Below, piece after piece: positions 26,514 to 44,122 of a DNA stretch of 57,705 bases; the stretch's first letter is position 1, and each line of letters begins with the position of its first letter. The notes beneath the pieces were generated by a model. The model saw nothing but the letters and a program-made list of their open reading frames with translations. It had not been told where the DNA came from and ran no database searches. Both the position numbers and the translations under genes were made by a program. Source of the stretch: Bacteroidota bacterium (GTDB taxonomy: Bacteria > Bacteroidota > Bacteroidia > Bacteroidales > UBA7960); contig JAGXRQ010000072.1 in assembly GCA_018335675.1 (NCBI GenBank), positions 1 through 57,705 on the forward strand, written 5' to 3'.

Positions 26514-26610
26514 GTAGAGACGTGCCCGTAGAGACGTGCCTGCAGGCACGTCTCTACTTGGACCGCATTGATATGTAATTGTAGAGACGCGCCTTTTGGC
26601 GCGTCTCTAC
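26514..26610. repeat. Palindromic REP-like elements (gtagagacgtgcc family), three units
   Basis: A half unit at 26514-26527 precedes a perfect 30-base palindrome at 26528-26557 (two 15-base arms). A second hairpin follows at 26581-26610 (13-base arms, 4-base loop; gtagagacgcgcc). The same core occurs again at 39706-39725. The 317-base gap between iorA and the next start otherwise holds only the two promoters. Confidence 0.9.
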
Positions 26611-32468: not shown

Positions 32469-34226
32469 ATGAACACAATTGGTAAGGTAACCGGAATTAT
32501 TGCAAACCTTGTTGTGGTTGAAACAGAAGACACAGTAGCACAAAACGAAATTTGCTATATCAATCATGAAGGTACCCGCCTTATGGCAGAGGTAATTAAG
32601 ATTTTGGGCAAAAAAGTTTATGTACAGGTTTTTGAAAGCACCAGATGTTTAAAAGTTGGAGCTGAAGTTGAATTTATGGGGCACATGCTTGAGGTAACAC
32701 TAGGCCCTGGTATTCTTTCAAAAAACTTCGACGGCTTGCAAAACGACCTTGATAAGATGGAAGGCGTTTTTCTTAAGCGTGGTGAATATACTGAAGCTCT
32801 TGACAAGGACAAAAAGTACAGCTTTAAACCACTTGCAAAACAAGGAGATAAAGTTCAAGCCGGTGATTGGCTTGGGGAAGTTATTGAAAACTGGATCTCT
32901 CATAAAATTATGATTCCTTTCAAAATGAAGGAAGAATATACCATTAAGAGTCTGGTTAAAGAAGGTGAATACACTATTAATGATATAATTGCTGTTGTAA
33001 CAGACAAGGATGGCAAAGATCATAACATAACCATGACTCAGAAGTGGCCGGTTAAAGTTCCTATTAAAGCTTATAAAGAAAAACCAAGACCTTTCAAAAT
33101 TCTTGAAACAGGTGTAAGAGTTATTGATACTCTTAACCCTATGGCAGAAGGCGGCACGGGTTTTATTCCCGGACCTTTCGGTTCAGGAAAAACTGTATTG
33201 CAACATGCATTATCAAAATATGCTGAAGCCGACCTGGTAATTGTTGCTGCTTGTGGTGAAAGAGCAAACGAAGTTGTGGAAATATTTACAGAGTTCCCTG
33301 AGCTTGAAGACCCTCGTTCAGGTCGTAAACTTATGGAACGCACCACCATTATTGCAAACACTTCTAACATGCCTGTTGCTGCCCGTGAAGCTTCGGTTTA
33401 TACTGCCATGACATTAGCAGAATATTATCGTAGCATGGGTCTTAAAGTTCTTTTACTTGCCGACTCAACTTCTCGTTGGGCGCAAGCACTTCGTGAAATG
33501 TCGAACCGTATGGAAGAGCTTCCGGGGCCTGATGGATTCCCTATGGATCTTCCTGCTATCATATCTAACTTCTACTCAAGAGCTGGATTTACATATCTGA
33601 ATAACGGAAATAGCGGCTCTATCACATTTATCGGAACAGTTTCTCCGGCCGGTGGTAACCTTAAAGAGCCTGTTACTGAAAGTACTAAAAAAGCAGCAAG
33701 ATGTTTTTATGCATTATCGCAGCAAAGAGCAGACAGCAAAAGATACCCTGCTATTGATGCAATTGATAGTTATTCTAAATATTTAGAATATCCTGAAATC
33801 ATCAATTACTTTGAGGAAAATGTTGATAAACAATGGGTTACAAATGTGCTGTATGCAAAGAATACTTTACTTAGGGGAAAAGAAGCATACGAACAGATTA
33901 ATATTTTAGGTGATGATGGTGTACCTTTAGCTTACCATCTTACATATTGGAAATCAGAAATCGTTGACTTCGTAATTCTACAGCAGGACGCTTTTGATAA
34001 AATCGATGCCTCAACATCGTTTGAACGTCAAAACTATATGCTTAAGAAAGTTATAAGCCTGTGCGAGAAAAATTACAACTTTGATTCATTCGAAGCTATT
34101 GGTCAATATTTCAAAAGGATAATCAACAACCTCAGACAGATGAACTATCAGGAATTCCAATCTGAAGGTTTTAAGAAATTTGAAAAAGAACTAGAACAAA
34201 TAATTCAAGAAAGGGAGGCTGCATAA
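32469..34226 (+). CDS. atpA: V-type ATP synthase subunit A (catalytic)
   Basis: The 585-residue catalytic subunit has the Walker A motif IPGPFGSGKTVLQHAL (about residues 232-247), the GER segment AACGERANEVVE and the LADSTSRWAQALREMS motif. The long non-homologous insert typical of A subunits sits before the P loop (residues about 110-200). The catalytic Glu is in GERANEVVEIF. Its stop overlaps the start of B by one base (TAATG). Confidence 0.97.
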   Translation: MNTIGKVTGIIANLVVVETEDTVAQNEICYINHEGTRLMAEVIKILGKKVYVQVFESTRCLKVGAEVEFMGHMLEVTLGPGILSKNFDGLQNDLDKMEGVFLKRGEYTEALDKDKKYSFKPLAKQGDKVQAGDWLGEVIENWISHKIMIPFKMKEEYTIKSLVKEGEYTINDIIAVVTDKDGKDHNITMTQKWPVKVPIKAYKEKPRPFKILETGVRVIDTLNPMAEGGTGFIPGPFGSGKTVLQHALSKYAEADLVIVAACGERANEVVEIFTEFPELEDPRSGRKLMERTTIIANTSNMPVAAREASVYTAMTLAEYYRSMGLKVLLLADSTSRWAQALREMSNRMEELPGPDGFPMDLPAIISNFYSRAGFTYLNNGNSGSITFIGTVSPAGGNLKEPVTESTKKAARCFYALSQQRADSKRYPAIDAIDSYSKYLEYPEIINYFEENVDKQWVTNVLYAKNTLLRGKEAYEQINILGDDGVPLAYHLTYWKSEIVDFVILQQDAFDKIDASTSFERQNYMLKKVISLCEKNYNFDSFEAIGQYFKRIINNLRQMNYQEFQSEGFKKFEKELEQIIQEREAA

Positions 34227-35551
34227 TGGAAAAGGAAACAAAGGCTTTTCAAAGAATATATACTAAATTATTCCAGCTTACAAAAGCAACTGTATCTCTG
34301 AAAGCTCAGGGAATAGGCAACGAAGAACTTGCAATTGTTGACGGGCGTTTGGCTCAGGTTGTGAAGATTATGGACGACATTGTTACTCTTCAGGTGTTTG
34401 CCGGAACAGAAGGTATCGCAACAAATGCTGAGGTTATTTTTTCAGGCAAAGCTCCATCTCTTAAAGTAAGTGATGACCTTGCAGGAAGATTTTTCAACTC
34501 CTACGGCTTACCGATGGAAGGTGGCGAAATAATGGGAGAAGAAAGAGAAATTGGAGGCCCCAGCGTTAACCCTGTTAGAAGAAAACAACCTTCTGAGCTT
34601 ATTGCTACAGGTATTGCTGGTATTGACCTTAACAACACTCTTGTTACAGGACAAAAGATTCCGTTTTTTGCAGACCCCGACCAGCCATTTAACCAGGTTA
34701 TGGCGATGGTTGCTCTTAGAGCAAAAGCCGATAAAATTATTCTTGGTGGAGTTGGTTTAACAAATGACGATTATCTGTTCTTCAGACAAGTTTTTGATAA
34801 TGCAGGTGCTCTCGATAGAATAGTTGGGTTTATCAATACTACAGAAGACCCTCCCGTTGAAAGGCTTCTTATTCCTGACATGGCTCTTACTGCTGCTGAA
34901 TATTTTGCAGTTAAGAAAAATGAAAAAGTGCTTGTTCTTTTAACTGACTTAACTCTATACGCAGATGCCTTAAGTATTGTATCAAACCGTATGGACCAGA
35001 TTCCTTCGAAAGACAGTATGCCGGGTTCGCTTTATTCTGACCTTGCGCGTCTTTATGAAAAAGCAGTTCAGTTTCCGGATGGGGGTTCAATTACCATTAT
35101 TGCAGTTACAACTCTTTCCAGTGGCGATATTACTCATGCTATTCCTGATAATACCGGTTATATTACTGAAGGTCAGCTTTTCTTAAGAAAAGATTCAGAT
35201 ATTGGTAAAGTTATCGTTGACCCGTTCAGAAGTTTATCGAGACTAAAACAGCTTGTAATTGGCAAGAAAACTCGTGAGGATCATCCTCAGGTGATGAACG
35301 CAGCTATTAGATTATATGCTGATGCTGCAAATGCTAAAACAAAACTTGAAAACGGTTTTGACCTTTCAGATTATGACGAAAGAACACTTGATTTCGCAAA
35401 AGCATATTCTGAAAAACTTCTTGCTATTGATGTTAATATTGAAATTGACACAATGCTTGAAACAGCCTATGATTTGTTTAGAGAATATTTCTCTGTTGCA
35501 GAGGTAGGTTTGAAAAATGAATTTGTTGAAAAATACTGGAACAAGAAATAA
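34226..35551 (+). CDS. atpB: V-type ATP synthase subunit B (regulatory)
   Basis: The 441-residue non-catalytic nucleotide-binding subunit lacks a Walker A lysine; the matching place reads TGQKIPFFADPDQPFNQ. TDLTLYADALSIVSNRMDQIPSKDSMPGSLYSDLARLYEKA is diagnostic of B subunits. It makes the alternating A3B3 head with AtpA. D begins at the very next base after its stop. Confidence 0.96.
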   Translation: MEKETKAFQRIYTKLFQLTKATVSLKAQGIGNEELAIVDGRLAQVVKIMDDIVTLQVFAGTEGIATNAEVIFSGKAPSLKVSDDLAGRFFNSYGLPMEGGEIMGEEREIGGPSVNPVRRKQPSELIATGIAGIDLNNTLVTGQKIPFFADPDQPFNQVMAMVALRAKADKIILGGVGLTNDDYLFFRQVFDNAGALDRIVGFINTTEDPPVERLLIPDMALTAAEYFAVKKNEKVLVLLTDLTLYADALSIVSNRMDQIPSKDSMPGSLYSDLARLYEKAVQFPDGGSITIIAVTTLSSGDITHAIPDNTGYITEGQLFLRKDSDIGKVIVDPFRSLSRLKQLVIGKKTREDHPQVMNAAIRLYADAANAKTKLENGFDLSDYDERTLDFAKAYSEKLLAIDVNIEIDTMLETAYDLFREYFSVAEVGLKNEFVEKYWNKK

Positions 35552-36166
35552 ATGGCTATCAAATTTCAATATAACAAAACAGCTTTACAGCAACTCAACA
35601 AACAGTTGAAGATGCGTGAAAGGGCTTTGCCTACTCTAAAGAATAAAGAGTCTGCTTTGAGAATTGAAGTCAAGAAAGCAAAAACACAAGCAGAAGAATT
35701 AGATGGTAAGCTTGAGCAAAAGCTAAAAGAATATCAAAAAGCTGTTGAACTTTGGGGAGAATTTGATAATGATTTGGTATCTGTTGAAGATGTTGATCTA
35801 ACTATTAAGAAAATTGCAGGTGTTAAAACTCCAATTCTTGAAGAAGTAAAGTTCTCAATAAAGGAATTTAGCCTTTTCAACAAACCCGGTTGGTTTCTTG
35901 ATGGTATAAGCATTATAAAAGAACTAGCTACTATTGCCATTGAACGTGAAGTGTTTCATCAAAAAATGACTTTGCTGGATCACGCCAGAAGAAAAACTAC
36001 TCAAAAGGTAAACCTTTATGAAAAAGTTCAGATTCCGGGCTTTCAGGATGCAATCAGAAAGATAAAGAGATTTATGGAAGATGAAGAGAATCTTTCTAAA
36101 TCATCTCAAAAAATAGTTAAAAGTAAAATCCAGGCAATGGAAGCAAAATTGGAGGAAAGCTTATGA
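35552..36166 (+). CDS. atpD: V-type ATP synthase subunit D (rotor shaft)
   Basis: The 204-residue protein is almost all helix, with long heptad runs (KSALRIEVKKAKTQAEELDGKLEQKLKEY at the front, RKTTQKVNLYEKVQIPGFQDAIRKIKRFMEDEE at the back), the paired-helix plan of subunit D that turns in the A3B3 head. Its ATGA overlaps the start of subunit I by 4 bases. Confidence 0.93.
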   Translation: MAIKFQYNKTALQQLNKQLKMRERALPTLKNKESALRIEVKKAKTQAEELDGKLEQKLKEYQKAVELWGEFDNDLVSVEDVDLTIKKIAGVKTPILEEVKFSIKEFSLFNKPGWFLDGISIIKELATIAIEREVFHQKMTLLDHARRKTTQKVNLYEKVQIPGFQDAIRKIKRFMEDEENLSKSSQKIVKSKIQAMEAKLEESL

Positions 36167-37977
36167 TAGTTCCTATGCTAAAATATTCCTTCCTGGTTTA
36201 CCATAAGGAATACGAATCATTTTTAAATGATCTGCGAGACCTTGGCGTTGTTCATGTAAGTGAAAAACAAAAAGATGTTTCTGATGAAATCAGAGACAAG
36301 TATGATCAGATAAGGCAAATAAACAGTATTATCAAAGAGCTTCAGAAAAGAGAGATTAGTACTGTTAAAACAGACGGAATTGACGGAGAAAAAGCATTCG
36401 AAGAAGTTCAGTCATTACTGCTTGATATCGAACAAAAGCAACAGCAGCTTAGCATCCTAAAAAAAGAGATACAACACATTCAGCCTTGGGGAAATTTCAA
36501 TAACGAAACAATTAATAATCTTAAGGATAATGGTGTATTCATCAAGTTTTTCACTGTTTCTATAAGAAAATTTGATGCTGAGTGGGAGCAGAAATATCCT
36601 ATTCAGGTAATAAATCAACAGTCGGGTTTAACATACTTCGTTTTATTCCATAAAGAAGGAGAAGAAATTGAGATTGATGCTGAGGAGATGAGAGCTCCGG
36701 AGCATTCTGTTGCTGAACTAGTTATGCATCAGCAAAATTTAGAAAACAGCCTTGAAGAGATAAACAAAAAGCTTGACAAACATGCTGCAGAAAGTATTGA
36801 TGCAATAGAAAAGCATTTTCTTTCTGTTATTGAGATAACTGATTACAAAAAGGTTATTGAAAACACTCAGAAGGAAGCAGAAGATAAAATAATGATGTTG
36901 GAGGGCTGGGCGCCTGAACATAGAAGTGAAGAGCTGAATACCTTTATGGAAAATAATAAGATTCTTTTCATTTCGGAGAAACCAGATAAAGTAGAAAATG
37001 CTCCTATCCTACTTAAAAACCAAAAGTTTGCTCGCAAATTTGAAGTATTAGGAGAGCTTTATTCATTGCCAAAGTATGATGAACTTGACCTTACTCCTTT
37101 CTTTGCGCCATTTTATATGCTGTTCTTTGGCTTCTGCCTTGGGGATGTTGGATACGGGTTGATTCTGGCTATAGGTGCTTTGGTAGCTAAGGGAAAAGTG
37201 AAGAAAGAGATGAAGCAGGTTATGAGCTTAGTATTTTATCTTGGTTTATCAACAATCCTATTCGGTTTAATAGGTGGTACTTTCTTTGGAATACCTCTTT
37301 ATGATACAAATCTGCCAATATATAGAGACCTTGCTGTAATGTTTAAAGAAAAGGGCACTGATATTAATCAGATTTTGTTTAACCTATCACTTGTGCTTGG
37401 AGGAATACAGATAATTTTTGGTTTGATAATTAAAGTATTTAATGAAATCAAGCAGTTAGGAATTAGTTATGCTATTGGCACAATTGGTTGGGTAATATTA
37501 TTACTAGGGATTGTTATAATTGCATTAGTGAGTCATTTTGCCGGAATTCCAATGGAGGAACTAAAAACAATCACGTACGCTTTGGTTGGAGTTAGCGGTG
37601 TAATGATTTTATTGCTAAACAACCTTAAACGTAACATATTTATGAACGTTGGAGTTGGTTTGTGGGGCGTTTACAATATGGCAACCGGCATTTTGGGTGA
37701 TATGCTCTCATATATCAGGTTGTTTGCTCTGGGGATTTCAAGCGCTATTATGGGATTTGTGTTTAATAGTTTAGCAGTATCAATGAGTGGAAGTATCCCT
37801 GTATTAAATATTGTTATCATGATAATTATACTTGTGATAGGCCATGCAATTAATATATTTATGTCAGGTTTGGGCGCATTTGTGCACCCTATGCGTTTAA
37901 CGTTTGTAGAGTTTTACAAGAATGCCGGATTTTCCGGAGGAGGTAAAAAATATAATCCATTTAGAAAATTAACTTAA
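36163..37977 (+). CDS. ntpI: V-type ATP synthase subunit I (a-type stator)
   Basis: The 604-residue protein has a cytoplasmic half (1-310) of coiled coil that contacts the stalks and a C-terminal half of about seven or eight membrane helices. ELDLTPFFAPFYMLFFGFCLGDVGYGLIL and NMATGILGDMLSYIRLFALGISSAIMGFVFNSLA are typical; the last carries the conserved Arg facing the rotor ring. It forms the ion half-channels. K starts 26 bases later. Confidence 0.95.
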   Translation: MIVPMLKYSFLVYHKEYESFLNDLRDLGVVHVSEKQKDVSDEIRDKYDQIRQINSIIKELQKREISTVKTDGIDGEKAFEEVQSLLLDIEQKQQQLSILKKEIQHIQPWGNFNNETINNLKDNGVFIKFFTVSIRKFDAEWEQKYPIQVINQQSGLTYFVLFHKEGEEIEIDAEEMRAPEHSVAELVMHQQNLENSLEEINKKLDKHAAESIDAIEKHFLSVIEITDYKKVIENTQKEAEDKIMMLEGWAPEHRSEELNTFMENNKILFISEKPDKVENAPILLKNQKFARKFEVLGELYSLPKYDELDLTPFFAPFYMLFFGFCLGDVGYGLILAIGALVAKGKVKKEMKQVMSLVFYLGLSTILFGLIGGTFFGIPLYDTNLPIYRDLAVMFKEKGTDINQILFNLSLVLGGIQIIFGLIIKVFNEIKQLGISYAIGTIGWVILLLGIVIIALVSHFAGIPMEELKTITYALVGVSGVMILLLNNLKRNIFMNVGVGLWGVYNMATGILGDMLSYIRLFALGISSAIMGFVFNSLAVSMSGSIPVLNIVIMIIILVIGHAINIFMSGLGAFVHPMRLTFVEFYKNAGFSGGGKKYNPFRKLT

Positions 37978-37988
37978 AGTCTCACTAA

Positions 37989-38450
<462 letters not shown>

Positions 38451-38472
38451 AAGATATAAGATATCTCTTTTT

Positions 38473-38525
38473 AAAGCATCCTATTGTTTTCGGGAAACCG
38501 GAGATGGTAGGGTGCTTTTATTTTG
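38473..38525 (+). terminator. Terminator after the V-ATPase operon
   Basis: An 11-base arm aaagcatccta (38473-38483) pairs with tagggtgcttt (38508-38518), with one G-T pair. A 24-base loop lies between, and a T-rich run follows. It lies about 23 bases after the ntpK stop. Confidence 0.7.
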
Positions 38526-38617
38526 CAATTATCAAGGCTGCTGAGGTTGAACTGATTATGGAGAAAGGGATTGTGTGGATTGTGAAGATTTGAGAATGTT
38601 TTTTGGAAGTTTCCAGT

Positions 38618-39490
38618 TCACCTTAATTTTCCAAAAATCCGATTCACATCAATTTCCAATTTAGAAAACGCAAACCATTTTTTCCCAAGATCTTTTAAAG
38701 AGGCGCCTATGTGATAGATTTGATTATCTATTATTAAAAAACGATCATGACAATCATCGAACTTCTTTATTTTAAGATTTTTATATTGAACGTTAAATTT
38801 TTCAACATCCTGTAAGAGTTTACTGTTGATATTTTTAGAATAAATGCAGATTTCAACCTCTGGTTTCTTTTTGCTTAGCACAGTAAGAACTTGTTCATCC
38901 AAATAATTATCAAAAAGCAGGATGGTGTTTTCTGCGTTTCTAATCAGGTCTGAAACAAAAACGTGGGCATCAAAAACCTGCCCTTGAAAAAAGATGCCTT
39001 GTTTTGGTGTAAATTGATTTTGTTCCAAAGCTTTAAACAACTTATTGAAATTTTCATCATGTAGCAGAAGTTTCTGGTCTATCATATGAAACTTGTCAAA
39101 AATTTCGGCATTTTTAGTCAAATAATGTCTCATTTCAACGAAAGCGGACACTATCAATATGCTTACTTCTATTGCTTTTTTACTTCTCAGTACAGCTGAG
39201 AGCATTGAAACACCATGTTCGGTAAAAGCGAAGGGCAAATATTTCCTATGGCTTCCTTGTTTTGTTTCTAAGGTCGCAATTTGCGACCTTAAAATTTGAT
39301 ATTCTTTGGTATTTAATTTAAACATAAACTGTTCAGGAAATCTCTCAATGTTTCTTTTAACCTGTTCATTTAATCTCTTTACATCTACATCATATATAAT
39401 TGCGAGGTCACGATCCAGCATTACCTGCTTTCCACGTATATCGTAGATTCTACTCTTAATATTTTGAATTGGGAAGTCACTTTCTGTCAT
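38618..39490 (-). CDS. ORF6N-domain DNA-binding protein fused to a PLD-like domain
   Basis: The 290-residue protein starts with the ORF6N domain, found in phage and mobile-element regulators: IYDIRGKQVMLDRDLAIIYDVDVKRLNEQVKRNIERFPEQFMF. It continues to LPFAFTEHGVSMLSAVL. A helical middle follows, then a C-terminal segment (about 175-290) with strand-rich sequence and HDRFLIID plus IYHIGASLKDLGKKWFAF. That is the layout of a phospholipase-D-like site with H-x-R in place of H-x-K. The function is unknown. Phage antirepressor-like control or a nuclease role are both possible. It is an isolated minus-strand gene beside the V-ATPase terminator, with no phage genes around it. Confidence 0.85.
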   Translation of the reverse strand: MTESDFPIQNIKSRIYDIRGKQVMLDRDLAIIYDVDVKRLNEQVKRNIERFPEQFMFKLNTKEYQILRSQIATLETKQGSHRKYLPFAFTEHGVSMLSAVLRSKKAIEVSILIVSAFVEMRHYLTKNAEIFDKFHMIDQKLLLHDENFNKLFKALEQNQFTPKQGIFFQGQVFDAHVFVSDLIRNAENTILLFDNYLDEQVLTVLSKKKPEVEICIYSKNINSKLLQDVEKFNVQYKNLKIKKFDDCHDRFLIIDNQIYHIGASLKDLGKKWFAFSKLEIDVNRIFGKLR

Positions 39491-39527
39491 AAAATCTTTT
39501 GTTTATTGAAATAGCAAATTTATGCAA

Positions 39528-39535
39528 CAAAAATA
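39528..39535 (-). promoter_or_regulatory. Predicted -7 box of the ORF6N gene (TATTTTTG)
   Basis: A TAnnTTTG match on the minus strand, about 38 bases upstream of the ATG at 39490. Confidence 0.45.
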
Positions 39536-39648
39536 ATAAATTAACAATTATATTATACATATGCACATATTTAATCTACTAATTATTTTTTTACACCTAT
39601 TTGTTTATTTAGGTTGAAATTCTGGCGAAATATGGGATTGGGAGGATT

Positions 39649-39730
39649 GCAGATACGTGCCGTAAAGGCACGTCTGTACGGATATTGTCGTTTTTTTCAT
39701 AGTGGGACGTGCCTGCAGGCACGTCTTTAC
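39649..39730. repeat. Two degenerate copies of the gacgtgcc palindrome
   Basis: An imperfect hairpin at 39649-39679 (acgtgcc ... ggcacgt arms) is followed by 39702-39730, whose central 20 bases (39706-39725) are a perfect palindrome identical to the core of the element at 26528-26557. This is the main content of the 288-base gap between the ORF6N gene and asmA. Confidence 0.85.
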
Positions 39731-39778
39731 GGGCTGCCAATAAACATTTCAGCAATTAATAAACGGTAAGGTTTTATT

Positions 39779-42373
39779 TTAATCCCACTCAATTATAAAA
39801 TTGCCTTCTTCACGCTTTTTAACTTCTCGCTTTTCCTTTATCTTTTGAACTTCTTCGGGAGGTGTTTCTTCGAGTATAGTGTCTTTGGTTATTTTAAATT
39901 CTTTGCGGAAGATGTCCAAAAGGGTTTTCCTCTCCTCCTTAAGGTCTTCTCTAACCTTTTCCATTCTAGTTTTGCGATCGTATTTGAAGACCGGATTACT
40001 GATATTTCCTGTTACAAGAATATAGAGTGTAGTTTTGTTGCCATCGTCAATAATGTCTCCGTATTGTTCCTGAGGATTTCTGTTTTGACGATTCTTGCGT
40101 GCCAGCACATCCGAAAGTAATACTTGCAGTCGATAGTTTATATCATTATTAAACTTATGTTCTCCAGAAAGTTTTATGTTTATAGCGTTTGAGTTAATTT
40201 CCATGAATGGGATGTTAATTGTTTCATCCTTAATGGAAATTTTATTTTCCAATGTGGAAAACTTAATATGCTCTAGGTCTCCAATTTTAATAAACCTTGA
40301 CAACTTTAATACAGGCTCGTAATTAATTAGTTCTCCGTTATCAATTTTGAGGTCTGCATTTGCTTCAATGGTTTTCAAATCTACATCAAGATGAGGCGAC
40401 CAATTGCCTGAAAACTGTATTGTTGAATTTAACTTGCCCTTTATATGCTTATCCATTATTTCTTGCTGCCCAAAGTTATTCATTTGGTAGAATAGCTGCT
40501 GAATTTCAACATTTTCAGTGCTTCCAACACATCTAACTTTAAGCAAGTCTTCATTTTTCCCGTCAATTGTTCCGGCAAGAAATACTTTTCCGCCCATTGC
40601 ATTCAGAGAAACATCTTCAGCCATAAAAAATTTATTGCTGAGGTATAAAGAGCCCTTCACATTATTTGCTTCGAAATTTCGAAAGACAACATTATTTATA
40701 GTAGCTCCCAAACTGAAATCTAACTTGTCTGAAAAGCTTAATTTATAAGTTGTTTCCTTTCCTTTAGATTCAAAGAAAAGAAGTTCGTTCAAATTAATAT
40801 GATTGGCTTTAAAATTGGCATCAACAAAAAGTTTTTGGTTTTCAAAAAACAGATATGACAAGAAATTTCTAAAATTTCCTTTGAGATTGAAATCGCTAGC
40901 ACTAACTTTTCCGCTTAAAGATTCGACCACAAGATCGTTATTATTAAAGTTGAAAACTCCAGAAAAATTATTATACTCTTTTTTATCATCTTTCAATTTG
41001 AAGCTAACATTATTAAAGGAAAGCTTACCTCTTGAGGAGCTGTTTACAAAGTCAATTGGTCTAAATTCTTTCCCATTACTTATAGATCCGGAGAAAGAAA
41101 GCTCTAGATTTAAAATTCCAAGAGGATTTTGAAAAAATTCAATTTTGAAAAAATCTATAATATCTGCAATCTCAATATTAGATTTGATAGACATTTCAAT
41201 ATCAGGCCTGTTAAAGTTCAAAACAAATAACTCTCCTTCAAGAAATCCATTATTTAGTTGAGTTGAAAAATCTTTTAACACCAATGCAGAGGATGAAAGA
41301 TTTCTAAATCTTCCGTTATTAAATTTCCCATTGAAACTAAGGTTTTTCATTCTTACGTCTTTCTTCCGGTCGCTTACTTCAGCGTTAGTTACTGAAAACT
41401 CAGCGCTGATAAAAGGATTAACAACATTTGAAAATGTACCTGAAATTTTCGTTTTAAAAACTATATCCCCTTTTACTCTATAATCTTGAAAATATTCCTG
41501 AACAAAATCAGGCAGGTCGGAAATCAGATTCTGAATCTTAAGCCTGTCTGAAGCAACTGTAATATCAAGAAAAGTAAATTGTCCACGAAAATCAACCTCC
41601 CCTGTTACATCAAACTCGTGCTTATTTATTACAACCCCACCCTGCCTAAAAATGAATAGCTTGTTTTCAAATACATCAAGGAGAAGGTCAACTTTTGTCT
41701 CTTGAAATGCAACATACTCAGTGTCATCATATTTAATGTTTTCAGTAAAAAGTTCACCTACAATTGCAAGATTGTATTCGCTTTCTTTAAAAAGGCCTTT
41801 TAAATCAGCCTTATGAGTAAGAAAAGAGACATGAAGTTTGGCGAAGTAGTCATTATAATTTATTCTAACACGTTTAAGTATAACTCTCTGAAAGTCGAAT
41901 ACCATGCTTGCTTCAGAATCGTCTGATTTTTCACTTTCCCAAACAAGATAATTTACAGTACCATCTTTAAAAATAACAGGATTAAACTCGGCCAATGACA
42001 CTTCAAGTTCTTTGACTTCATATTGCTTCTTTAGCACATCTAGAAGATTAAACTGAAAATAAATTCTGCGAGCTGAGAGCAATGTGTCTTTTTCTAATTT
42101 GGGGGCATTTTCTAGAACAACGACATCATTGAGAGTTACTGAAACTAATGGAAAGCTTCTAAAAAAATTCACTCCAATATTACCAATTGAAGCTTCAGTT
42201 TTAATGTTTTTATTCAATTCATTTATAAAAGCCTCTTTGATCGTATCTCGGTAGATCCAGGCCAGCAGAGAGAGTGCAATAAAAACTACGAGGATAAAAA
42301 CAAATCCTGATATTAGAGCAATTTTCACAAACTGCCAAGCTAGTTTAAGATTTTTTTTAGTAGAGTTAGCCAT
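39779..42373 (-). CDS. AsmA-family envelope protein
   Basis: The 864-residue protein has one N-terminal membrane helix (LISGFVFILVVFIALSLLAWIY, residues about 18-40) and then a long run of beta-strand repeats, the AsmA/TamB-like plan. The AsmA C-terminal domain lies around residues 560-800 (VSLNAMGGKVFLAGTIDGK, INIKLSGEHKFNNDINYRLQVLLSD). A charged Lys/Glu-rich tail follows. Relatives carry lipids between membranes or influence outer-membrane assembly; this one is untested. It is the last gene of the ruvA-to-asmA run, 44 bases after rnhA. Confidence 0.87.
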   Translation of the reverse strand: MANSTKKNLKLAWQFVKIALISGFVFILVVFIALSLLAWIYRDTIKEAFINELNKNIKTEASIGNIGVNFFRSFPLVSVTLNDVVVLENAPKLEKDTLLSARRIYFQFNLLDVLKKQYEVKELEVSLAEFNPVIFKDGTVNYLVWESEKSDDSEASMVFDFQRVILKRVRINYNDYFAKLHVSFLTHKADLKGLFKESEYNLAIVGELFTENIKYDDTEYVAFQETKVDLLLDVFENKLFIFRQGGVVINKHEFDVTGEVDFRGQFTFLDITVASDRLKIQNLISDLPDFVQEYFQDYRVKGDIVFKTKISGTFSNVVNPFISAEFSVTNAEVSDRKKDVRMKNLSFNGKFNNGRFRNLSSSALVLKDFSTQLNNGFLEGELFVLNFNRPDIEMSIKSNIEIADIIDFFKIEFFQNPLGILNLELSFSGSISNGKEFRPIDFVNSSSRGKLSFNNVSFKLKDDKKEYNNFSGVFNFNNNDLVVESLSGKVSASDFNLKGNFRNFLSYLFFENQKLFVDANFKANHINLNELLFFESKGKETTYKLSFSDKLDFSLGATINNVVFRNFEANNVKGSLYLSNKFFMAEDVSLNAMGGKVFLAGTIDGKNEDLLKVRCVGSTENVEIQQLFYQMNNFGQQEIMDKHIKGKLNSTIQFSGNWSPHLDVDLKTIEANADLKIDNGELINYEPVLKLSRFIKIGDLEHIKFSTLENKISIKDETINIPFMEINSNAINIKLSGEHKFNNDINYRLQVLLSDVLARKNRQNRNPQEQYGDIIDDGNKTTLYILVTGNISNPVFKYDRKTRMEKVREDLKEERKTLLDIFRKEFKITKDTILEETPPEEVQKIKEKREVKKREEGNFIIEWD

Positions 42374-42417
42374 TCAAACACAAATTACTATTCAAAAACG
42401 TAATTAAATAATCCTTA

Positions 42418-43053
42418 TTATTTTCTTCCAAAATCAGCCGGGATTTCCCCCCAGGCTTTAGTTTCCCATTTAAGGATTCTATTATTCCATTGGTTATTTT
42501 GAAGCCAAAACTCAGCTCTGTCTATCAAATCGAAAAGTTCTTCATTGTTGGCGCTTGGCTCTAGCTTCGTTTTAGCTTTTTTATCCGCAACCCATTTCAT
42601 GGCAGTTTTACTATCGGAATAAATTGGAACATTCCAATTATTTTTTTTACATAAAGCAAGAGCATGGACAATAGCAAGGAATTCTCCAATATTATTTGTA
42701 CCTTCTTCAAATGGTCCCTGATGAAAAATTTGTTGTTTATTGGCTGTAAAAACTCCTTTATACTCCATCTTCCCCGGGGCACCACTACAGGCAGCATCAA
42801 CGCAAATGCTATTCTCTATTGGGTCGCCAAAATTTTTTAATTCTTGAGCCGACATTTCGGTTACAACATTCTTTTTATTAAGAAATTTCCATGGGTTTCC
42901 AGAAAAAGCTTCTTTGGCCATTTCCATTGTAGGAAATGATTTATATTTTGCTCCAGGGAATCCATCAATAGACTTTTTGCATTTATCCCATGTATTAAAA
43001 ATTCCCGGCTCTTTCCCTTCCCAAACAACGTAAAATTTCTTTTTTTCACTCAT
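42418..43053 (-). CDS. rnhA: Ribonuclease HI with N-terminal viroplasmin domain
   Basis: From the ATG at 43053 (1 base after thiL) the protein has 211 residues. The first 50 form the RNA:DNA-hybrid-binding viroplasmin domain (KKFYVVWEGKEPGIFNTWDKCKKSIDGFPGAKYKSF) as in eukaryotic RNase H1. The RNase H fold follows with acidic residues in CVDAACSG, GEFLAIVHA, YSDSKTAMKW and ANNEELFDLID. It removes RNA primers and R-loops. The longer frame from 43116 runs through thiL and is not needed. Confidence 0.93.
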   Translation of the reverse strand: MSEKKKFYVVWEGKEPGIFNTWDKCKKSIDGFPGAKYKSFPTMEMAKEAFSGNPWKFLNKKNVVTEMSAQELKNFGDPIENSICVDAACSGAPGKMEYKGVFTANKQQIFHQGPFEEGTNNIGEFLAIVHALALCKKNNWNVPIYSDSKTAMKWVADKKAKTKLEPSANNEELFDLIDRAEFWLQNNQWNNRILKWETKAWGEIPADFGRK

Positions 43054-43054
43054 A

Positions 43055-44122
43055 CTATACTCTATTATTCTTGAAAGCATCCCATCCTTGTGCTCTAAGC
43101 GGAATTTGTTTCCCATCAGCTGTAATTATATTCAAGCCATCACAAACATTGGTAATGTATCCTATAATTTTGATATATGGATTGTTTTGTAATTTTTCAA
43201 AATGCTCTTGGCCAACAGTAAAAAGTAATTCATAATCCTCTCCTCCACTAAGTGCGAAAGTGACCGGACTAATATTAAATTCCTCAGCAACAGATATAGT
43301 TTCAGGGTCAATTGGAATTTTATCCTCATATAAATAAGCTCCGGTTCTAGAATTTTTGCAAATATGCATAATTTCAGATGCCAACCCATCTGATACATCT
43401 ATCATAGACGTGGGCAGAATACTCATTTCATTAAGCTGTTCAATAATAAATTTGGATGCTTCCGGTTTAAGCTGTCTTTCAAGCACATATGAATAGTTTT
43501 CAATATCCGGCTGACTATTTGGATTAGCCATAAATACCTTTTTCTCTCTTTGCAGAACAAGTAAACCCGCGTATGCTGCACCCAGGTTTCCACTAACACA
43601 GATAAGATCGTTCTTTTTTGCACCTTTTCTATAAGTTATTTTATCCTTATCAACAGTGCCAACAGCCGTAACTGAAATAAACAAACCTGATGCAGAAGAG
43701 CAAGTATCTCCACCAACAAGATCAACTTTATATTTATCGCAGGCAAGTTTAATCCCTTCGTAAAATTCTTTCAAAGCATCTACTGTATATCGACTTGAAA
43801 TAGCAATGCCAACAACTATCTGAGTAGGCGTTCCATTCATTGCATATATATCTGATAAGTTAACAACAACAGATTTATAGCCCAAATGCTTTAAGGGTGT
43901 ATAAGCTATATCGAAATGAATGCCTTCTACCAATAAATCTTTAGTGATAAGCATTGCTTTATCACCACAATCAATTACAGCGGTATCATCTCCAATGGCC
44001 GTTATTGTAGATTTTAAAACTGGTTTAAAATCTGCAGTCAGAATATCTATAAGTTTAAATTCTCCAAGTTCTGAAATATTGATAATGTTTTGGTCTTCTT
44101 GCTTTTTATCTTTCTTCATCAT
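43055..44122 (-). CDS. thiL: Thiamine-monophosphate kinase
   Basis: The 355-residue enzyme phosphorylates thiamine monophosphate to the diphosphate cofactor. IGDDTAVIDCGDKAMLITKDLLVEGIHFD, LVGGDTCSSASGLFISVTAVG and MIDVSDGLASEIMHIC are the metal and substrate motifs of the AIR-synthase-like fold. It lies 27 bases after the DAHPS-CM gene and directly before rnhA. No THI-box riboswitch was seen in the 27-base spacer. Its product is needed by the TPP enzyme IorA. Confidence 0.95.
   Translation of the reverse strand: MMKKDKKQEDQNIINISELGEFKLIDILTADFKPVLKSTITAIGDDTAVIDCGDKAMLITKDLLVEGIHFDIAYTPLKHLGYKSVVVNLSDIYAMNGTPTQIVVGIAISSRYTVDALKEFYEGIKLACDKYKVDLVGGDTCSSASGLFISVTAVGTVDKDKITYRKGAKKNDLICVSGNLGAAYAGLLVLQREKKVFMANPNSQPDIENYSYVLERQLKPEASKFIIEQLNEMSILPTSMIDVSDGLASEIMHICKNSRTGAYLYEDKIPIDPETISVAEEFNISPVTFALSGGEDYELLFTVGQEHFEKLQNNPYIKIIGYITNVCDGLNIITADGKQIPLRAQGWDAFKNNRV

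Follow-up and report, generated by a model that had tools for sequence, protein, structure and literature searches.

The window studied here is a stretch of 57,705 nucleotides, contig JAGXRQ010000072.1 of the Bacteroidota bacterium assembly GCA_018335675.1, and it carries a minus-strand gene for a protein of 290 amino acids (aa) in which an ORF6N winged-helix DNA-binding domain is followed by a helical linker and a single PLD-like domain (Table 1). This pairing of domains had been proposed in a preliminary description of the DNA and was borne out: the Pfam ORF6N profile (PF10543) matched residues 14-100 at 113.3 bits (cut-off 27.8), and Foldseek and VIA searches returned a PLD fold for the C-terminal part. 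The codons of the wing contain a 29-nt palindrome, which is the coding segment of the hypervariable ORF6N stretch and which the preliminary description does not mention. We computed this palindrome, its conservation at the DNA level, the coupling of its bases to residues of the protein and the enrichment of palindromes upstream of related genes, and we consider it quite probable that this is a mobile gene for a transcription regulator which controls its own expression by binding the palindrome in its wing codons.

Table 1. Features of the ORF6N gene and its upstream region (window positions)
Feature	Position	Strand	Basis or remark
Gene for ORF6N – helical linker – PLD-like protein, 290 aa (PADLOC PDC-S05)	38618..39490	minus	ORF list, profiles
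ORF6N winged-helix DNA-binding domain, residues 14-100	39191..39451	minus	Pfam profile; predicted secondary structure
Predicted recognition helix, residues 37-46 (VKRLNEQVKR)	39353..39382	minus	structure prediction
Recognition-helix residue E42	39365-39367	minus	covaries with palindrome base pair ±4
29-nt palindrome TTTTAAGGTCGCAAATTGCGACCTTAGAA (minus-strand reading), encoding ILRSQIATLE, the wing	39266..39294		proposed cognate site
Palindrome core GTCGCAATTTGCGAC	39273..39287		only exact copy found in the 3.36-Mb assembly
Single PLD-like domain, residues 165-290	38621..38998	minus	fold search
HDRFLIID, residues 248-255, HxR(x4)D, variant of HxK(x4)D	38726..38749	minus	homologue alignment
GASLKDLGKK, second part of half active site	38678..38707	minus	homologue alignment
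REP-like pair upstream of the gene	~39655..39738		read by eye; direct-repeat search
Palindrome of the REP-like pair	39706-39725		repeat search
Direct repeats of the REP-like pair	39666-39681 and 39717-39732		repeat search

None of 1000 synonymous-codon shuffles of the window gene equalled the score of its palindrome. We then scored 123 of 130 unique genes, comprising 90 ORF6N and 33 RhuM genes (the other 7 had no regular-expression match; from newer loci only matches above 150 bits and of at least 150 aa were taken). The wing palindrome reached a score of at least 7 in 81 of the ORF6N and 28 of the RhuM genes, against 29 and 9 with such a score elsewhere in the same gene, and it outscored the rest of the gene in 81 and 27, respectively. 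Scores of at least 9 were found in 64/90 ORF6N wings compared to 15/369 background genes of 150-360 aa, scored anywhere in the gene. In larger sets, the wing palindrome scored at least 7 in 126 of 140 ORF6N genes (the unique ones among 213 open reading frames (ORFs), with 13 missed and the rest duplicates) and in 61 of 72 RhuM genes (from 91, with 10 missed and the rest duplicates). Homologues from Bacteroidota, Spirochaetota, Bacillota and Campylobacterota, to which Aliarcobacter belongs, carry a palindrome at the equivalent position, as do 16 of 20 ORF6N genes on viral contigs (score at least 7) and 66 of 76 ORF6N open frames shorter than 240 aa that have no PLD domain. The palindrome is translated in two frames, yielding SQxxT or VANCD. 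By eye, two or three successive palindromes that lengthen the loop were seen in single wings at loci L089, L093, L099, L110, L114, L118 and L131. We also considered that an abundant genomic REP or mobile palindrome had been inserted into the gene and rejected it, as the core with up to 2 mismatches occurs at 7 places of its own genome (the reversed control gives 3), of which only the one in the window gene is exact.

The two arms of the palindrome are matched to each other within each gene. For ORF6N genes whose palindrome centre falls on codon position 1 (n = 72), pairing at positions ±3 to ±9 was 0.917, compared to 0.627 ± 0.018 when the 3' arms were permuted, a control which leaves kinship among the genes in place; with the centre on codon position 2 (n = 12) the values were 0.917 and 0.732 ± 0.046. 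RhuM arms showed the same behaviour (0.944 vs 0.533 ± 0.050, n = 28; in a larger set of 63, 94.8% complementary vs 48.4% permuted), and so did 13 distinct KilA-N sites (95.1% vs 70.3%). Among the 42 ORF6N mismatches at ±3 to ±8 there were 6 G.T and 10 A.C, as well as A.A and others, and this lack of a G.T excess makes double-stranded DNA a likelier object of selection than mRNA and disfavours an mRNA hairpin.

Next, we looked for residues coupled to the palindrome in the ORF6N and RhuM families, in which the residue-base code was assessed. Outside the wing, residue 42, along with 38, 64 and 39, was among the most strongly coupled ORF6N columns. Across 133 ORF6N genes (those of the 140 whose wing palindrome scored at least 5.5), Glu at residue 42 went with G.C at base pair ±4 in 53 genes (1 other), Gln with A.T in 55, Arg with C.G in 14 (6 other) and Lys with C.G in 4. 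Both half-sites fitted this code in 126 genes, one in 4 and none in 3, and the left base fitted in 128 genes, compared to no more than 73 in any of 2000 label shuffles. Some of the exceptions have further palindromes in the same wing. The pattern is that of the textbook residue-base contacts Glu-C, Gln-A and Arg-G. Synonymous codons follow it too: in frame-1 genes the Ser codon was TCG in 39/39 cases with Glu and TCA in 44/44 with Gln, and in frame-2 genes the Cys codon was TGC in 7/7 with Glu and TGT in 10/10 with Gln, so that the coupling is not a matter of protein packing. On a tree built without the helix and wing columns the residue class changes at least 43 times and the base pair at least 45 times (with a mismatch taken as its own state). 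Supported independent pairs (median pairing) agreed in 6/6, 6/6 and 2/2 cases with none opposite, which argues against one old event. Among the tabulated members outside Bacteroidota, the code is obeyed in Haliovirga, Legionella, Treponema and Aliarcobacter, and in Butyrivibrio on one internal half-site. RhuM genes have a code of their own, in which Glu before His goes with CGG (10/10), Arg with GCA (6/6) and Leu with AAG (21/23), and the 16 Lys cases are divided between GCA (12) and TCC (4). The covariation thus places a cognate site inside the gene itself, and the window protein very probably recognises it.

Embedded palindromes were also found in related families. KilA-N genes scored at least 9 in 26/29 cases, 25 of them above all 20 synonymous shuffles, and Bro-N genes were mixed (15/29 at this threshold, 13 above all 20 shuffles); of only four pRha genes, too small a set for a verdict on that family, none exceeded its shuffles, and 2 genes in this survey were left unplaced. 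Four KilA-N genes from named phages and plasmids outside Bacteroidota scored 9.0 to 14 (9, 0, 0 and 0 of 200 shuffles reaching the score), and a fifth, from Latilactobacillus, had no palindrome. In phage Fnu1 the two genes annotated as ORF6N each have a palindrome in the equivalent codons, scoring 11.5 and 8.0 (0 and 1 of 200 shuffles), and relatives in the genome of the window scored 9.5 (RhuM), 14 and 9.5 (Bro-N) and 9.5 (KilA-N). In Escherichia coli K-12, dinD (L351:3761-4585) holds a 28-nt palindrome at codons 59-68 with 12/14 pairs and a score of 9.0, reached by 1 of 200 synonymous shuffles; in a single example of the second dinD allele the same stretch pairs 10/14. Among E. coli records matching dinD, 2732/4668 are 80-90% identical to the K-12 gene. 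The two alleles of dinD (L351:3761-4585 and L357:1201-2025) have exchanged N-terminal DNA-binding parts (about codons 11-82) and a near-identical remainder. Additionally, three truncated or internally deleted relatives break at or just after the palindrome (L358:2291-2568, L088:1352-1690 and L100:5341-5556). Sequence searches of the PDB gave nothing credible for these families, with no relative for the RhuM profile or DinD and, for a KilA-N protein, two weak matches to a TagE region.

A second kind of site was found near the start of the genes, where a CAANTTG-type palindrome is present in 25 of 135 ORF6N genes, compared to 4 of 641 control windows, at a median of 121 nt before the helix codons. 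This search was framed after a plain similarity search with each gene's own palindrome had shown nothing, and the enrichment points to autoregulation. One copy in the genome of the window, C85, is without a wing palindrome and has an upstream one. The window gene has no site but the internal one, and with a single exact copy of the core in the genome, the gene itself is probably the chief genomic target of its protein.

The AlphaFold2 model of the window protein had a mean pLDDT of 81.8 and a pTM of 0.48, and VIA matched residues 165-290 to FAM83B (Z = 10.6), NucT (10.2), SauUSI (10.0) and Nuc (9.7), which supports a predicted PLD fold for this part, as opposed to a C-terminal domain unrelated to PLD. 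The preliminary description had likened HDRFLIID and GASLKDLGKKW (residues 262-272) to half of an HKD active site with Arg for Lys, and conservation agrees with it. In 47 aligned homologues (47 of 50 full-length genes, leaving out L112, L113 and the duplicate L010; a further alignment had 41 rows, leaving out five plasmid rows and L107) H248, D249, D255, G262 and S264 are invariant and R250, which replaces the Lys of HxK(x4)D, is conserved in at least 90%, so that a single HKD-like half site with Arg for Lys is kept well beyond chance. The protein thus carries HxR(x4)D in place of the HxK(x4)D of PLD (HKD) enzymes and one half site per chain, where orthodox HKD enzymes have two by dimerisation or duplication; it is an ORF6N and PDC-S05 member by profile and a PLD protein by fold, but not an orthodox HKD enzyme. 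A sub-threshold NCBIfam match to VPA1262_N_dom (residues 146-272, window 38675-39055; 31.7 bits vs a cut-off of 80) and a weak PADLOC match to NsnC hint that the PLD-like domain may occur in other conflict proteins. A PDB sequence search with the window protein gave no credible relative, with one weak match to a viral glycoprotein.

The gene is patchily distributed. Six further matches lie in its own genome (7 places in all), 18 of 47 genomes of its taxonomic family have a match, own genome included, and 148 of 295 genomes of the order do when partial relatives are counted. Genomes sampled throughout the analysis were mostly Bacteroidota. The window protein matches the PADLOC PDC-S05 profile over its full length (E 4.2e-116, residues 9-286). 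In the excerpted part of PMC12988326, PDC-S05 is cited as a phage-defence candidate from a guilt-by-embedding preprint (Payne et al. 2024), and validation is described as still pending for most such candidates. Among 49 full-length homologue loci, the window included, 8 lie in type I restriction-modification (RM) operons, between or beside hsdM and hsdS, as in Treponema pTS1; this is a lower bound, since the hsd profiles were seeded with the pTS1 locus (a 54-aa ORF of L069 labelled HsdM was disregarded). Other homologues are carried on plasmids, in whose records the C-terminal PLD-like domain is also fused to N-termini annotated RhuM (17 of 18 such proteins were aligned, L132 being left out). 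Homologues confined to prophages, which would have spoken against the preliminary description, can be rejected from the window, plasmid and hsd-operon copies, although not all neighbourhoods were scanned. A viral scan with the single protein found no homologue, and one with the alignment found 26 loci, for the most part ORF6N fragments or short ORF6N genes. Complete and partial ORF6N or RhuM genes stand in tandem arrays at L011, L012, L031, L046, L122, L123, L124 and L125, and in L124 two neighbouring genes share a near-identical C-terminus and differ in the DNA-binding part. One own-genome paralogue (G000:C37:6311-7159; L004, L076) has an in-frame TAA and an intact palindrome scoring 13.

In the window, the gene is flanked on one side by genes for five V-type ATPase subunits and on the other by an ORF of 864 aa that matches no Pfam family, an RNase H gene and a gene for an AIRS-domain protein. 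Among these 8 flanking proteins (32469-44122) no phage gene was found, as the preliminary description had stated, and with RNase H as the only PHROGs match the copy is not in a prophage; it also stands alone, outside any defence operon of the kind expected for PDC-S05. We viewed 29 V-ATPase subunit loci of relatives; in the 26 that extend at least 1 kb downstream, the gene has no match there, and in the relatives compared the 864-aa neighbour is absent beside the V-ATPase gene, so that no clean empty site was found. Taken with the 18 family genomes and the 7 places in its own genome, this supports a mobile gene, one of the options raised earlier. The REP-like pair reported just upstream was located, yet it is not an abundant REP, because its palindrome has two exact copies, both in the window, and allowing up to 3 mismatches raises this to no more than four genomic places. 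The sequence GACGTGCCTGCAGGCACGTC stands at 26533-26552 and 39706-39725, the only exact copies found in the genome. That the pair belongs to the gene is a candidate association only.

According to the mechanism we propose, the ORF6N winged-helix protein would bind as a dimer to the palindrome in the wing codons of the gene that encodes it, residue 42 of the recognition helix reading base pair ±4 with Glu on the C of G.C, Gln on the A of A.T and Arg or Lys on the G of C.G. Protein bound at the wing site, and in some relatives also at the palindrome near the start codon, would block or loop transcription of its own gene. Since the operator would lie inside the ORF, regulation would travel with the gene to any place of insertion, including between hsdM and hsdS. 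The PLD-like domain, with its changed active site, would most likely act as a sensor in the manner of TrmB-type regulators, responding to a phosphorylated or sugar-like ligand or some other signal by relieving or enforcing the block. A winged helix followed by a PLD-like domain, the order seen in TrmBL2, speaks for the proposal. We infer dimerisation, binding, repression and this role of the PLD-like domain from the sequences, and consider such a portable regulator, controlling itself and sensing through its PLD-like domain, likelier than a nuclease.

Several observations weigh against this proposal. In 9 of the 90 ORF6N genes the wing scores below 7 (in two, L151 and L176, the wing was misplaced by the script), and the palindromes of Legionella (5.5) and Haliovirga (6.0; Fusobacteriota) are weak, that of Legionella more so. 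The window gene has no CAANTTG-type upstream site; among the 25 upstream palindromes the residue-42 code is followed at both half-sites in 12, at one in 4 and at neither in 9; the similarity search found a gene's own palindrome upstream in 12/122 cases and a foreign one in 108/1453, with no clear excess; and RhuM genes had upstream copies in 0/43 cases at 14 or more of 17 positions. The tree on which the changes were counted is built from 82 columns and has few supported branches. Finally, although the TrmB and TrmBL2 regulators were the top Foldseek matches (E 6.3e-8), the TM of about 0.3 to TrmBL2 (rmsd 15.5 over the whole chain) means that only the order of the domains is TrmBL2-like, not their relative placing.

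Other explanations of the palindrome fared less well. It could be a target for cleavage, for exclusion of gene copies arriving on mobile elements or for recombination in which domains are exchanged, not an operator, which we regard as unlikely but worth serious attention. The PDC-S05 match, the PLD fold common to nucleases and the mobility of genes that are multicopy and often tandem or truncated are in keeping with it, as are truncations ending at or after the palindrome (the L100 fragment ending ...SSLRS*, L088 and one E. coli dinD deletion allele) and the dinD alleles with exchanged N-terminal parts. However, Arg stands where the catalytic Lys should be, a nuclease would probably cut the very gene that encodes it, the palindrome persists in most short ORF6N frames without a PLD domain, the upstream palindromes are placed where operators sit, and other truncated copies end elsewhere (L090, at about residue 167). 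A hairpin in mRNA or single-stranded DNA, or binding by another factor, seems very improbable: near-perfect dyads would indeed fold, but mismatches show no wobble excess, and neither version accounts for the coupling between base pair ±4 and the gene's own residue 42, which extends to synonymous positions. We give practically no credence to chance or to packing of residue 42 against the wing. Right-arm wing residues of frame-1 genes do shift with residue 42, mostly Ala with Glu, Val with Gln and Gly with Arg or Lys, but packing is already contradicted by the covarying synonymous Ser and Cys codons and by one DNA pattern underlying two reading frames and different wings; chance is opposed by the synonymous shuffles of the window gene.

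A different question is whether the protein is an anti-phage system, as its PADLOC label suggests, with the PLD-like domain acting as a nuclease or phosphodiesterase effector, which is compatible with a cognate intragenic site and which we hold to be a minority prospect, slightly ahead of the cleavage target. The PDC-S05 match, the hsd-operon loci, the PLD fold, the strong conservation of H248, D249, D255 and S264, the same domain on RhuM-type proteins and the weak VPA1262_N_dom and NsnC matches fit an effector; HxR in place of HxK does not, and a regulator residing within an RM operon would yield the same guilt-by-embedding signal. The conflict-system nuclease of the preliminary description retains its profile match and its RM loci and loses the catalytic Lys, and of the roles it had offered, that of a regulator is the best supported, with evidence for an intragenic cognate site.

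More tentatively, and with rather less than even confidence, we suggest that throughout the KilA-N, Bro-N, ORF6N and RhuM group the DNA of the wing is the operator and that a copy arriving on another phage, plasmid or island, bringing its recognition site along, is silenced or even attacked by whichever resident protein has matching specificity, a form of homotypic immunity. If so, specificity and target would be inherited as one unit with a readable residue-base code. Genes of these four families are common in bacteria, phages and plasmids, and the target sites of many uncharacterised regulators could then be read from their own coding sequence and the recognition code learned from genomes alone. 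Defence candidates such as PDC-S05 may in that case be self-regulating mobile regulators and not effectors, and E. coli K-12 dinD would offer a test case in a standard strain.

Compared with known systems, the window gene shares with PDC-S05 the full-length profile match and, through some homologues, the placement in type I RM operons, and differs in that the window copy stands alone; the excerpted part of PMC12988326 does not mention a palindrome with PDC-S05. The archaeal regulators TrmB and TrmBL2 resemble the window protein in the order of winged helix-turn-helix, linker and PLD-like domain, with 11-14% identity between TrmBL2 and the window protein in the listed alignments, but the window protein has ORF6N as its N-terminal domain and keeps the HxR...D half site. 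Phage antirepressors with ORF6N, KilA-N or Bro-N domains have related DNA-binding domains, and the Fnu1 ORF6N genes have palindromes as well, whereas the window protein ends in a PLD-like domain, not KilAC or ORF6C, and no phage neighbours were found. E. coli K-12 DinD, of the Bro-N family, resembles the window gene in having a palindrome within the codons of the DNA-binding domain and differs at its C-terminus. The open-access literature searched (bioRxiv lying outside it) contained no description of an operator formed by a gene's own wing codons that is widespread and has a readable code. Operators inside coding regions are known, as in purR and with lacO2 in lacZ. Unlike these, the operator proposed here would consist of the wing codons of the DNA-binding domain itself, and such sites are widespread in ORF6N and RhuM genes and covary with the recognition helix.
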